Positions 21,921-27,341 of a DNA stretch of 64,000 nucleotides are shown in pieces; position 1 is the stretch's first letter; each line of letters begins with the position of its first letter. Source of the DNA: Marinomonas profundi. GTDB lineage: Bacteria > Pseudomonadota > Gammaproteobacteria > Pseudomonadales > Marinomonadaceae. The notes under the pieces are model-generated. The model did no database searches and was not told where the DNA came from. It saw only the letters and a program-made list of their open reading frames with translations. The stretch spans positions 3,482,578 through 3,546,577 of the forward strand of contig NZ_CP073013.1 in the NCBI RefSeq assembly GCF_020694005.1. Direction: 5' to 3'. A program made the translations under genes and the position numbers.

Positions 21921-22532
21921 TTACGCGCTCGCTGGTGGTCCACTGTGCACTCGAAATTCAACATCCGGTTCAATAATTAGCTGGCGTTCTAATTCACCAA
22001 AAAAAGCCACTCGCTCATCAATCGATTCATTCGCGTACTCTTGTGCAAGCTCTAGGTAATCTTCAAAATGACGTGCTTCTGATTTAAGCAATGAAATATA
22101 GAATTTAGACAGCTCTTCGTCTAAATGCGGTGCTAAGATAGCAAAGCGTTCGCAAGAGCGCGCCTCAACAAATGCACCAATAATTAGGGTGTCAACAAGG
22201 CGCGCGGGCTCATGAGTCCGAATATGTTTACGCATTCCGTCAGCATAGCGTGAGGCGGTTAAATGCTCATAAGCTATGCCACGTTTTCGCATCAACTTGT
22301 GCACTTGTTCGAAGTGCAGCAACTCTTCACGCGCTAAACGAGACATTTTATGCAGCAAGTTATCGCGATCAACATAGCGATACATTAAGCTCATGGCGGT
22401 TGAGGCCGCTTTTTTTTCACAATGAGCATGATCATTTAATAGCAAGGTTTGATTCTCAATCGCCCAATTCACCCATGCTTCAGGAGATTGGCACGGAAGA
22501 AATTCAACAAGCTCAGGATACGCAGATAACAT
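21921..22532 (-). CDS. miaE: tRNA 2-methylthio-N6-isopentenyl adenosine hydroxylase MiaE
   Basis: 203 residues. Ferritin-like di-iron monooxygenase that hydroxylates the isopentenyl group of ms2i6A37 in tRNA. Iron ligands are visible as paired helices: HCEKKAAS, REELLHFEQV (ExxH), EARSCERF, and SEARHFEDY (ExxH). The order and spacing match MiaE. In Salmonella this modification responds to oxygen. Start ATG 22532 gives MLSAYPELVEFLPC, the family start. It is divergent from the pseudokinase gene at 22621 with an 88-bp gap that must contain both promoters. Confidence 0.93.
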   Translation of the reverse strand: MLSAYPELVEFLPCQSPEAWVNWAIENQTLLLNDHAHCEKKAASTAMSLMYRYVDRDNLLHKMSRLAREELLHFEQVHKLMRKRGIAYEHLTASRYADGMRKHIRTHEPARLVDTLIIGAFVEARSCERFAILAPHLDEELSKFYISLLKSEARHFEDYLELAQEYANESIDERVAFFGELERQLIIEPDVEFRVHSGPPASA

Positions 22533-22620
22533 TACTCTACCTTTTTGTGTTAAAAAACGTGATTATACGCATTATTAACCACTTAGGCAGCAACGTCTTG
22601 ATTTGGATATCAAATTCGTA

Positions 22621-24375
22621 ATGAATGATTTTTATGACCCTAAAAAATTAAAGATTGGCCAACATGTTGGTGTCGAACTAGACCCTTATGTTTTGAACTA
22701 TCCCATGGATGGTGACAAAACCACATGGGTAGTCGACCAAGGTGGACGCCCTTTCGTGCTGCGTTTTTTCCAGTCGAACAAGGGCAAGGTGGAAGACTTT
22801 CTACAAAATGCGAGAAAGTACGCAAGCGTCAAACACCCCGCCATCACGCCCAACTATCCGCCGTTTTATTCTAACTTATGGGTATTTTCATGCTCGGCGG
22901 TGTGTGGTGGCGAGAACCTTTATAGCTTTTTAGGCAAATACCCTGATGGCGCACCGCTGAATGTTGTCATTAGCCTGTTTGACAATATTGCCAAAGCATT
23001 GGATCAAGTTCATCGTAACGGCTTGTTACATGGGCACTTAGATTTAAGTGCCATTCATGTCGTCAATGGCTTGGGCTTGATGACGGGGTTTGGCGCACAT
23101 AACTGGATGAGCCGAATTGATGACAGCGTCATGGACGCTCGCCTGCTTCCGCCGGAGTATTTAAAGAAAGAGCAAAAGCGCACAACATCATCGGACCGTT
23201 TCGCCTTTATGAAACTGCTAATGGCGGCCTTGTTGGGTGAATCCATTTTAGACAAAGACTTCAGTACAAGCTTACCAGACAGTCACCCCAACTTAAGCGA
23301 CGCCACATGGAATCGGTTACTAAAATGGAGTCGTGAAAGCGAGCGCTATAGGCCAAAATCCTTAACCGAAGTCATTCGAATGCTTCGTGCGAACCTCTAC
23401 AAGCCAGAAGTCAGCGACCGTTCGACAACCAAGCGAGCGATTAAACGCTACGTTCGTAATACACCTCGAAAAACGGTTGCTATTGGCGCCGTACTGATCA
23501 CGGGATTAGTGGCCGCAGCGATATTATGGCCTGAGAGCAAAACTGAACAAAACCTCGTCACGCCACTGCCTGCTATTCCAGAAGCAAAGCCACCAACGTC
23601 ATTCGAAGCGCTACCACAAACATTAGAGGAGCCTCTTCTATCCGGTGGCACTGCGCCCAAGATAGAAAAAATTCCGCCAGCAACCTTTATGATGGGCGAT
23701 CAAAATAGAATGGGAGACGACAACGAAAAGCCCGTTCATGAAGTGGATATCCCTAAAGGCTTCTATATTAGCAAATACGAAGTCACCTTTGATCAATATG
23801 ACAAGTTTGCCAAAGCCACTGGACGAGAATTACCGCCTGATAATGATTGGGGCCGAGGACAGCGCCCCGTCATCAATGTCAGCTGGTACGATGCCAAAGC
23901 CTATGCCGTCTGGCTATCCGATCAAACACAAGAAGAATATCGCCTGCCGACCGAAATAGAATGGGAATATTCTGCCCGCGCCGATTCAAACACCGCTTTC
24001 TGGTACGGTAATACCGTTAAGCCGGGCTACAGTGTTTGTGACAGCTGCGGCAGTCAATGGGACGGTGTTTCTACTGCGCCTGTTGGCAGCCAAGCCAGTA
24101 ATCCACTAGGCTTGTTTGACATGCACGGAAACGTCGCTGAATGGGTGGAAGATTGTTATCACGACTCCTACGAGGGCGCGCCGAGTAAAAATCAAGTCTG
24201 GCTTGCTAACCAATGTGACAACAGAGTATTGCGCGGTGGGTCTTGGTTTGACATCCCTCGAGTGGGTAGAAGCGCCACACGTTATCGAGCGGAACCCAAT
24301 CTCCAAGCCAGCAATTGGGGCTTTAGAGTGGTGCGGATTATTCAGCAAGCTGATGATTTAGCTAAATCAGAATAA
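22621..24375 (+). CDS. Membrane protein: pseudokinase, TM helix, FGE/SUMF1-like domain
   Basis: 584 residues from ATG 22621 (an in-frame TTG at 22603 is less likely; no strong ribosome binding site for either). Residues of about 5-265 have protein-kinase fold traits (GLLHGHLDLSAIHVV, then GLMTGFGAHNW), but the HRD aspartate is replaced by His and DFG by GFG, and no VAIK lysine is evident: a predicted pseudokinase. A basic stretch precedes one TM helix at about 285-303, so the N-terminal part should be cytosolic and the rest periplasmic. Residues 349-574 are an FGE-sulfatase/C-type-lectin-like domain (MGDQNRMGDDNEKPVHEV, INVSWYDAKAYAVWLS, RLPTEIEWEYSAR, GNVAEWVEDCY, RVLRGGSWFD). The copper-binding cysteines after GGSW in true FGE are absent, so formylglycine generation is unlikely. 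Probably a sensor or scaffold; function unknown. Confidence 0.8.
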   Translation: MNDFYDPKKLKIGQHVGVELDPYVLNYPMDGDKTTWVVDQGGRPFVLRFFQSNKGKVEDFLQNARKYASVKHPAITPNYPPFYSNLWVFSCSAVCGGENLYSFLGKYPDGAPLNVVISLFDNIAKALDQVHRNGLLHGHLDLSAIHVVNGLGLMTGFGAHNWMSRIDDSVMDARLLPPEYLKKEQKRTTSSDRFAFMKLLMAALLGESILDKDFSTSLPDSHPNLSDATWNRLLKWSRESERYRPKSLTEVIRMLRANLYKPEVSDRSTTKRAIKRYVRNTPRKTVAIGAVLITGLVAAAILWPESKTEQNLVTPLPAIPEAKPPTSFEALPQTLEEPLLSGGTAPKIEKIPPATFMMGDQNRMGDDNEKPVHEVDIPKGFYISKYEVTFDQYDKFAKATGRELPPDNDWGRGQRPVINVSWYDAKAYAVWLSDQTQEEYRLPTEIEWEYSARADSNTAFWYGNTVKPGYSVCDSCGSQWDGVSTAPVGSQASNPLGLFDMHGNVAEWVEDCYHDSYEGAPSKNQVWLANQCDNRVLRGGSWFDIPRVGRSATRYRAEPNLQASNWGFRVVRIIQQADDLAKSE

Positions 24376-24539
24376 TTCCGCTAAATGTCACCTATTCGAA
24401 ATTGTTATGGTGCATCATCACTTCTTGAGGCTTTTTTTCTGTAACATGAGATGTACTAAATAGAATGAAATGCAGCAACCTGGTTTCAGGTTCTCTTTTA
24501 ACGCACGGTATTATTATCATAAATTATTCAGAGGTGAGA

Positions 24540-27341
24540 ATGAGCCTATATACAGAGTACTTACAAGAAATCGAAAATCGAAAAGGTCAAGGACTGCATC
24601 CTAAGCCCATTGATAGCGATGCGTTATTATCAGAAATCATTGCTCAAATTAAAGATACTAACCACGAACACCACAAAGACTCCCTTAACTTTTTTATCTA
24701 TAACACCATCCCTGGCACAACCAGCGCGGCGGTCGTAAAAGCTAAATATCTAAAAGAAATCATTCTTGGCGAATCAGCTGTTGCTGAAATCCCTCCCGCT
24801 TTTGCCTTTGAACTACTGTCTCATATGAAAGGCGGCCCTTCTATTAAAGTGCTTCTTGATCTGGCTTTGTCTGATGATACGTCAGTCGCAGCGCCTGCAG
24901 CAGAAGTACTTAAGACTCAAGTATTCTTGTATGAAGCGGACATGGAGCGCCTTGAATCAGCTTATAAAGCGGGCAACACCATCGCTAAAGATATCCTACA
25001 GAGCTACGCGGCAGCGGATTTCTTCACCAAGCTGCCTGACATTGCCGAAACCGTTGATGTGGTCACCTACATCGCGGCAGAAGGTGATATTTCTACCGAT
25101 CTACTTTCTCCAGGCAATCAAGCTCACTCTCGTTCAGATCGAGAGTTGCACGGCAAGTGCATGATTTCTCCAGAAGCACAAGCTGAAATCCAAGCGCTTC
25201 AAAAGCAGTATCCTGGCAAAAAAGTCATGTTGATCGCTGAAAAAGGCACCATGGGCGTAGGTTCTTCACGCATGTCTGGCGTTAACAACGTGGCACTTTG
25301 GGCCGGCGAGCAAGCAAGCCCTTATATTCCATTTGTGAACTTTGCTCCTATTGTGGCAGGCACAAACGGCATTTCCCCTATTTTTATGACGACAGTGGGT
25401 GTGACAGGCGGTATTGGTCTAGACCTTAAAAACTGGGTTAAGAAATTAGATGCCAATGGCAAACCCGTTCTTGATGCTAATGGCGACACTACCCTTGAAC
25501 AAGCCTACTCAGTAGAAACTGGCACAGTGTTAACTATCAACACTAAGGAAAAGAAACTCTACAGCGGCGACAAAGTATTGGTTGATGTTGCTTCCGCTTT
25601 CACACCTCAACAAGTTGAGTTTATGAAAGCCGGTAGTTCATACGCGGTTGTCTTCGGGAAAAAACTACAAACATTTGCCGCTGAAACACTTGGTATCCCA
25701 ACGCCAACAGTCTACGCCCCAGCACAAGAAATATCTAACGATGACCAAGGCCTTACAGCGGTTGAAAAAATCTTCAACAAAAACGCAGTGGGCGTAAAAT
25801 CTAAAAAAGCCTTGCACGCTGGCTCTGATGTTCGCGTCAAAGTAAACATCGTCGGCTCGCAGGACACCACGGGCTTGATGACGGCTCAAGAACTGGAATC
25901 TATGGCTGCGACGGTCATTTCTCCAAGTGTTGATGGCGCTTACCAATCGGGTTGTCACACCGCGTCTGTTTGGGACTCAAAAGCACAAGCCAACATTCCA
26001 AAATTGATGTCTTTCATGAATAAGTTTGGATTAATCACAGGTCGTGATCCCAAAGGCGTTTACCCTCCAATGACAGACGTTATTCATAAAGTATTAAATG
26101 ACATTACGGTTGATGACACAGCGATTATCATCGGCGGTGACTCACATACACGTATGTCTAAAGGCGTTGCTTTTGGTGCCGACTCAGGAACCGTCGCGTT
26201 AGCATTAGCAACAGGCGAAGCGACTATGCCAATTCCGGAGTCCGTCAAAGTAACCTTTAAAGGTAAAATGAAAAGCTACATGGATTTCCGTGATGTGGTA
26301 CACGCTACGCAAGCTCAAATGCTTAAACAGTTTGGCGGCGAAAACGTATTCCAAGGTCGTATTATTGAAGTTCATATCGGCACCTTGCTAGCGGACCAAG
26401 CCTTCACCTTTACGGACTGGACAGCAGAGATGAAAGCCAAAGCTTCCATCTGTATTTCTCAAGACAACACCTTGATTCAATCTCTTGAGTTAGCTAAAAA
26501 GCGTATTCAGATCATGATTGATAAAGGCATGGAGAATGAAGCACAAACTCTGCACGGTCTAATCGAATTAGCTGACAAACGCATCGCTGGCATCCAGTCA
26601 GGCACGCAGCCTGCCCTAGTGCCAGACAACAATGCTAAGTACTATGCTGATGTTGTTGTTGATCTTGACGAAATCATTGAGCCAATGATTGCCGATCCAG
26701 ATGTGAACAATGATGATGTGTCTAAGCGTTACACTCATGATGTCATTCGCCAAGTTTCTTTCTATAAAGATAAGCCTGTCGATCTAGGTTTTGTTGGGTC
26801 TTGCATGGTCCACAAAGGAGACATGCAAATCATCGCTCAAATGTTGCGCAATATTGAAAAACAAAATGGCAGCGTATCGTTCAAAGTGCCACTCGTTGTT
26901 GCGCCACCAACCTATAACATTGTTGATGAATTAAAAGCTGAGGGTGACTGGGACATTCTGAAGAAATATGCAGGTTTCGAATTTGACGATGCTAAACCAA
27001 AAGGTGAAGCACGTACTAAATACGAAAACATCATGTACTTGGAACGCCCAGGATGTAACTTGTGCATGGGTAACCAAGAGAAAGCAGAGCCAGGCGATAC
27101 AGTTATTGCCACCTCTACTCGCTTGTTCCAAGGTCGTGTTGTAGCAGACTCTACCGAGAAGAAAGGTGAATCTTTGCTTGGTTCAACGCCAATCGTTGTA
27201 CTTTCTACTATATTGGGTCGTTTCCCAACATTAGAGGAATACAAAGCAGCGGTAGCGGGCATTACCTTGACGGACTTCGCTCCACCACTCGATCCAATGA
27301 CAATGGCGCCAGTAGAGTTTATTCCTGTTAGTAACGTCTAA
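24540..27341 (+). CDS. acnB: Aconitate hydratase 2 / 2-methylisocitrate dehydratase (AcnB), long form
   Basis: 933 residues from ATG 24540 (GAGGTGAG upstream; the frame opens at 24465 without one). Interconverts citrate and isocitrate in the TCA cycle. The N-terminal HEAT-like domain begins SLYTEYLQEIENRKGQGLHP. The 4Fe-4S ligands are in VGSCMVHKGD and PGCNLCMGNQ; GGDSHTRMSKG is the substrate site. It is about 68 residues longer than E. coli AcnB, mainly through a segment after GGIGLDLKNWVKKLD, and the C-terminal part differs markedly from the E. coli form as I recall it. It resembles a longer AcnB clade. Single gene with its own terminator at 27383. Confidence 0.93.
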   Translation: MSLYTEYLQEIENRKGQGLHPKPIDSDALLSEIIAQIKDTNHEHHKDSLNFFIYNTIPGTTSAAVVKAKYLKEIILGESAVAEIPPAFAFELLSHMKGGPSIKVLLDLALSDDTSVAAPAAEVLKTQVFLYEADMERLESAYKAGNTIAKDILQSYAAADFFTKLPDIAETVDVVTYIAAEGDISTDLLSPGNQAHSRSDRELHGKCMISPEAQAEIQALQKQYPGKKVMLIAEKGTMGVGSSRMSGVNNVALWAGEQASPYIPFVNFAPIVAGTNGISPIFMTTVGVTGGIGLDLKNWVKKLDANGKPVLDANGDTTLEQAYSVETGTVLTINTKEKKLYSGDKVLVDVASAFTPQQVEFMKAGSSYAVVFGKKLQTFAAETLGIPTPTVYAPAQEISNDDQGLTAVEKIFNKNAVGVKSKKALHAGSDVRVKVNIVGSQDTTGLMTAQELESMAATVISPSVDGAYQSGCHTASVWDSKAQANIPKLMSFMNKFGLITGRDPKGVYPPMTDVIHKVLNDITVDDTAIIIGGDSHTRMSKGVAFGADSGTVALALATGEATMPIPESVKVTFKGKMKSYMDFRDVVHATQAQMLKQFGGENVFQGRIIEVHIGTLLADQAFTFTDWTAEMKAKASICISQDNTLIQSLELAKKRIQIMIDKGMENEAQTLHGLIELADKRIAGIQSGTQPALVPDNNAKYYADVVVDLDEIIEPMIADPDVNNDDVSKRYTHDVIRQVSFYKDKPVDLGFVGSCMVHKGDMQIIAQMLRNIEKQNGSVSFKVPLVVAPPTYNIVDELKAEGDWDILKKYAGFEFDDAKPKGEARTKYENIMYLERPGCNLCMGNQEKAEPGDTVIATSTRLFQGRVVADSTEKKGESLLGSTPIVVLSTILGRFPTLEEYKAAVAGITLTDFAPPLDPMTMAPVEFIPVSNV

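Follow-up and report, generated by a model that had tools for sequence, protein, structure and literature searches.

Proteins that join a kinase fold to a domain of the formylglycine-generating enzyme (FGE) type have been described in several forms. Chlamydia Pkn1, which carries a kinase and an FGE domain, has been reported to phosphorylate a substrate (PMC3581485), and kinase-TM-(PEGA)-FGE proteins are found in gammaproteobacteria. Like all of these, the protein described here, which is encoded in a 64,000-nucleotide stretch of Marinomonas profundi DNA (the window), has an N-terminal kinase fold and a C-terminal FGE-like domain, and it shares with the gammaproteobacterial proteins an apparent membrane helix between the domains and, in those examined (L035 and L037), an FGE part without the catalytic cysteines. 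The difference lies in the kinase: L035-L037 keep the HRD and DFG motifs, and L035 has a PEGA domain, whereas the window protein belongs to a clade that is pseudokinase throughout and in which no PEGA match was found. The FGE half also resembles PvdO, which is periplasmic and lacks the FGE cysteines, with a glutamate aligned with D544 and one cysteine pair aligned with C512 and C532; PvdO, unlike the window protein, is a stand-alone enzyme candidate.

The TagR-PpkA pathway of T6SS threonine phosphorylation follows the logic proposed here, in that a periplasmic co-receptor acts on a kinase that spans the membrane; TagR has an FGE-like fold. TagR acts on PpkA from the periplasm (PMC3224232; PMC6657622), and PpkA, unlike the window protein, is active and belongs to the T6SS. 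Kinase folds in a scaffolding role are represented by EssB/YukC and MviN, membrane proteins of bacteria in which a pseudokinase domain on the cytosolic side serves as a scaffold for other proteins (PMC12599244). They come from other bacterial groups and work in the T7SS and in peptidoglycan synthesis, and their description, unlike that of the window protein, includes no FGE domain. In the GLW family (O'Boyle 2025), GLW replaces HRD and a poly-Leu/Trp stretch occupies β3 (PMC12599244). These proteins are proteobacterial, with a membrane helix after the kinase and a leucine-rich β3 replacing the lysine, which resembles the Nitrincolaceae relatives of the window protein, and of the families described theirs is the closest description. 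Assignment to this family was nevertheless rejected: the window protein has HGH and FVLRF, the β3 residue in Marinomonas is arginine and not leucine, and the relatives carry other motifs, with no GLW there. The text of a 2025 review of bacterial pseudokinases names seven families and mentions no FGE or sulfatase domain, also not for ActPs1-3, CP1, DYD and DLHK, which are defined by family-specific sequence constraints (PMC12599244). In the part of the literature covered, no paper on FGE-pseudokinases was found, though a mention elsewhere may exist; the kinase-FGE architecture is known, but an obligate pseudokinase version with a DUF4139-like partner was not found described there.

The gene lies between a putative miaE and a putative acnB at all 39 Marinomonas/Maribrevibacterium loci (Table 1). 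Its start is the ATG at 22621, the aligned start kept across the genus orthologs; an in-frame TTG is present upstream at 22603. Neither promoter nor terminator signals rose above the chance level.

Table 1. Coordinates, in window positions, of the gene, its neighbours and the features of its product.
Feature	Position	Strand	Basis
Likely tRNA hydroxylase MiaE, upstream divergent neighbour (name read from sequence)	21921..22532	-	synteny marker; 39/39 Marinomonas/Maribrevibacterium loci
Pseudokinase-TM-FGE gene	22621..24375	+	ATG start, 584 aa; ortholog in 48/48 other genus genomes
Pseudokinase domain, residues 9-265, predicted cytosolic	22645..23415	+	AF2 model, PknA match, dN/dS 0.022
R48 replacing the ATP-binding β3 lysine (VAIK Lys)	22762..22764	+	R in 48/48 genus sequences aligned
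HGHLD (137-141) replacing HRDLK; catalytic Asp replaced by H139	23029..23043	+	H/T/M in genus
GFG (156-158) replacing DFG	23086..23094	+	G/A at DFG Asp in genus
Transmembrane helix, residues 285-303	23473..23529	+	mean hydropathy 2.28; net +7 before, -1 after; helix 283-302 in model
Variable disordered linker, residues 304-344	23530..23652	+	pLDDT <50 for 303-322
FGE-like domain, residues 345-574, predicted periplasmic	23653..24342	+	PF03781 E=2.5e-56; PvdO match; dN/dS 0.016
C473-D-S-C476, two of four invariant cysteines	24037..24048	+	C in 79/79; likely disulfides, pairing inferred
C512, invariant	24154..24156	+	residue tally over 79 sequences
C532, invariant	24214..24216	+	residue tally over 79 sequences
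D544...G549, at both catalytic Cys positions of true FGE	24250..24267	+	Cys absent in all
Likely aconitase AcnB, downstream neighbour (name read from sequence)	24465..27341	+	synteny marker; 39/39 loci

Both folds are well supported by predicted models matched to solved structures. AlphaFold2, run for the full protein on 79 family members, gave a model with a mean pLDDT of 86, and the kinase part alone reached a pLDDT of about 90 with a pTM of 0.88. Residues from about 9 to 264 superpose on PknA (4ow8; Z 22.8, 2.7 Å, 239 residues), as a protein-kinase-like fold would, while the degeneracy of the domain leaves the Pfam Pkinase match (E=1e-5) below the cut-off of that database. From about residue 327 to 575 the model matches PvdO (5hha; Z 34.9, 1.7 Å, 241 residues, 34% identity), followed by a Treponema variable protein and true FGEs at Z 27-29, and the Pfam FGE-sulfatase profile (PF03781) places this half in its superfamily with 191.6 bits against a gathering score of 23.3. 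The only hydrophobic segment, residues 285-303, has its +7 net charge in the 15 residues before it, and the N side of the helix is richer in K/R in 78/79 sequences; the positive-inside rule applied to this helix predicts a single-pass, N-in topology, with the kinase in the cytosol and the FGE domain in the periplasm. The first-pass annotation had reached the same arrangement from a basic stretch and one helix, and the two folds that it named are both recovered in the comparison with solved structures. The sequence features it relied on, namely HGHLD in place of HRDLK, GFG in place of DFG, and GGSWFDIPRVG (539-549) without the two FGE cysteines, are present as described, and no clade member has HRD, DFG or FGE cysteine residues at shifted positions in the alignment of relatives.

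The catalytic losses of the kinase half extend further. Where an active Hanks-type Ser/Thr kinase has the VAIK lysine, the HRD aspartate and the DFG aspartate, the window protein has R48, H139 and G156; the β3 replacement had not been reported by the first-pass annotation, nor had that of the HRDxxxxN asparagine, which is A144 here and S/A/H across the 48 genus sequences. The alignment comprised 48 Marinomonas/Maribrevibacterium sequences and 40 relatives from Nitrincolaceae and kin, with residue tallies made over 79 sequences. In the relatives the β3 position is mostly L/I, with some Q/E, and lysine only in Balneatrix; the HRD aspartate is absent from all 40 except Balneatrix (HLD), and none has the DFG aspartate, position 156 being G/P/M/N/A/L in the 79 sequences and never D. 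Conservation is high at the structural positions of the fold: His137 in 76/79, the APE Glu179 in 76/79, the αF Asp192 in 79/79 and Arg244 in 78/79. Judged by its catalytic positions, the kinase half is a dead pseudokinase throughout the clade, with Balneatrix as a partial exception. Balneatrix alpica (L113/L199) is the least degenerate member, keeping the VAIK lysine and HxD with NVG for DFG, and is a possible intermediate in kinase loss; it has no DUF4139-like gene.

Synonymous and nonsynonymous counts over nine close Marinomonas pairs gave a dN/dS of 0.145 for residues 266-344 (helix and linker), against the far lower values of the two domains (Table 1); conservation is highest in the FGE domain, and the pseudokinase half comes close to it. 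Selection acts to preserve the fold of the pseudokinase, and a non-catalytic role of the cytosolic half, on which purifying selection is strong, is supported.

A search for proteins of the same domain order, together with their neighbours, brought out a clade-wide distribution and a DUF4139-like partner, neither of which the first-pass annotation had noted. All 49 Marinomonas genomes examined carry the gene; in that of Marinomonas pontica (G011; L056/L093) it appears frameshifted in the assembly, as reading frames of 501 and 129 aa. Genome contigs of Marinobacterium, Nitrincola, Neptunomonas, Amphritea, Pontibacterium, Neptuniibacter and Balneatrix encode the same architecture, and the pseudokinase is found in 80/99 genomes of the sister family, Nitrincolaceae. 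Among 391 sampled genomes of the order, matches above 200 bits to the pseudokinase profile are confined to two families (f1 and f38), the next-best match, at 164 bits, being an active T6SS-type kinase. In each of the two trees, that of the kinase (97/94) and that of the FGE domain (93/83), the whole clade falls to one side of a branch, which is consistent with one origin; deeper placements are unsafe because of long branches. Ranked by profile score, PpkA-type kinases come closest to the kinase half, whereas the FGE half has a lone lipoprotein and proteins of the kinase-PEGA-FGE type as its nearest relatives, so that the histories of the two halves may differ. Kinase-free PEGA-FGE proteins (L048-L050) were set aside as another clade.

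In Nitrincolaceae the pseudokinase gene lies directly upstream of the gene for a secreted DUF4139-like protein of about 470 aa, with a gap below 100 bp in 35/41 loci, and downstream of a kdsA-like gene (name read from sequence) in 37/41 loci by family. The DUF4139-like gene occurs in 73 of the 80 Nitrincolaceae genomes with the pseudokinase and in none of the 19 without it, and the two genes are adjacent in 68/73; these counts, read by hand from two tables, are not phylogenetically independent. In one genus (g149) the DUF4139-like protein was not detected in any of six sampled pseudokinase-bearing genomes (G428, G437, G447, G458, G470, G480), and elsewhere in the order DUF4139-like genes are found without the pseudokinase. 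The Nitrincolaceae gene pair suggests a two-protein extracytoplasmic unit.

All 49 Marinomonas genomes have a diverged DUF4139-like homologue, unlinked to the pseudokinase gene, which was reached through a borderline DUF4139 match in one genome (G043) and a second search. The homology has an hhalign probability of 96.5% (E=1e-9) and is remote: Pfam DUF4139 matches 12 of 22 Marinomonas members, with a best E of 2e-4, and the window genome's own copy is too diverged to give a match in a Pfam DUF4139 search. This copy (L189:4214-5494; G000:C1:147315-148490) is secreted, and its gene, like that of G043, lies upstream of a tolC-like gene (tolC read from sequence). A sequence comparison of the DUF4139-like proteins with solved structures gave no match, and no paper on DUF4139 function was found in the literature searched.

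All together, these observations lead us to propose, with a probability of about 0.55, that the protein is a single-pass inner-membrane pseudokinase receptor or scaffold that acts with the secreted DUF4139-like protein. The periplasmic FGE-like domain would bind a ligand or a protein, most likely the DUF4139-like protein, and the bound state, or oligomerisation, would be transmitted through the one helix to the cytosolic kinase fold which, without phosphorylating, would recruit or allosterically control a cytosolic partner in the manner of EssB/YukC and MviN. We infer the contact with the DUF4139-like protein, the transmembrane signalling, the identity of the cytosolic partner and the persistence of the pairing in Marinomonas. 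A broader version is offered more tentatively, at less than even odds: that Marinomonadaceae and Nitrincolaceae share an unnamed trans-envelope module in which the FGE-like ectodomain of a dedicated pseudokinase receptor reads a secreted protein of the DUF4139 family and receptor signalling of the kinase type proceeds without phosphorylation. Bacterial pseudokinases are described as largely unexplored experimentally (PMC12599244), and a strongly conserved transmembrane pseudokinase with a genetically linked secreted partner makes it feasible to test whether a kinase fold can signal non-catalytically through the Gram-negative envelope, and what FGE domains without cysteines do.

The alternative that survives best, although we consider it unlikely, places the activity in the FGE-like domain, which would be a periplasmic enzyme of the PvdO type performing an oxidation or some other reaction, possibly on the DUF4139 protein, while the pseudokinase would serve as an anchor or regulator on the membrane side. 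From residue 345 on there are exactly four cysteines (473, 476, 512, 532) in 79/79 sequences, most simply read as two likely disulfides in the oxidising periplasm, and none at the two Cu-binding catalytic positions of true FGE/SUMF1 in any of the 79, for which reason a true FGE was rejected. Those cysteines are also absent from related FGE-like domains of the same order, on active kinases and lone lipoproteins (L034, L035, L037, L042, L045), so their lack is ordinary in domains of this kind, is not special to the lineage and does not prove inactivity. Position 544, where the first catalytic cysteine would lie, is D in 76 and E in 3 of the 79 sequences, so that the domain may have a working pocket. 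PvdO, the nearest solved structure and the one whose glutamate aligns with D544, is itself without the FGE cysteines and still required in vivo for an oxidation step, that of dihydropyoverdine (PMC6206403). In this respect the first-pass annotation, which spoke of two enzyme folds without catalytic residues, was right about the cytosolic half, a true pseudokinase with a non-catalytic role, and overstated the case for the FGE half. The high conservation of the FGE domain would also suit an enzyme, but constraint on the pseudokinase half comes close to that on the FGE domain, more than a mere anchor would require. Moreover, purified PvdO is inactive and cofactor-free (PMC6206403), and catalysis by the FGE fold without cysteines is therefore itself unproven. 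The window protein scores 155 bits against the NCBIfam PvdO cut-off of 500 and was rejected as a PvdO equivalog (NF051459), and no pyoverdine genes were seen among the genes read around it.

Less probable still is that the pseudokinase serves as the regulatory heterodimer partner of an active Hanks-type kinase and feeds a normal phosphorylation pathway. A second kinase-profile match in the window genome and the proximity of T6SS PpkA-type kinases by kinase-profile score, PpkA being activated by TagR from the periplasm (PMC3224232), speak for this idea, but several Marinomonas (G008, G013, G025) have only the pseudokinase match at E<=1e-15, and no recurrent kinase or phosphatase gene was seen adjoining the pseudokinase gene in the neighbourhoods of the genus and Nitrincolaceae loci. 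A place in the T6SS, as a component or as PpkA, was rejected: TssK, whose absence the first-pass annotation had not noted, is missing from the window genome and about half of the sampled Marinomonas, and the gene is in all Marinomonas with or without it.

Another ATP-dependent or nucleotide activity of the kinase fold, as in SelO or SidJ, appears very doubtful. It is suggested by R48, H137 and D141, invariant in Marinomonas near the old active site, and by precedents of pseudokinases with new activities (PMC12599244), yet these positions are not conserved in Nitrincolaceae, where residue 48 is L/I and residue 141 is A, C or S while the architecture persists. That the protein is a decaying, functionless relic of an active kinase-FGE protein, as the degenerate kinase motifs and the frameshifted copy in M. 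pontica might suggest, is strongly disfavoured by the dN/dS of 0.02 in both domains, the presence of the gene in every genus genome and its fixed synteny.

An anti-phage kinase was also considered and rejected, PADLOC giving only weak kinase-domain matches and no defence neighbours being noticed. The FGE-sulfatase profile has a second match in the window genome, outside the window (L002; G000:C1:2473950-2474273), in a protein of 410 aa whose sequence resembles the tip of a phage tail fibre and whose gene adjoins a tail-collar-like gene; the FGE fold there is probably a phage binding domain. In another family of the order (L197, genome G255), an active T6SS PpkA-type kinase carries a C-terminal FGE-like domain, its gene lying beside that of a PP2C-like phosphatase, and thus offers another pairing of kinase and FGE folds across the membrane.
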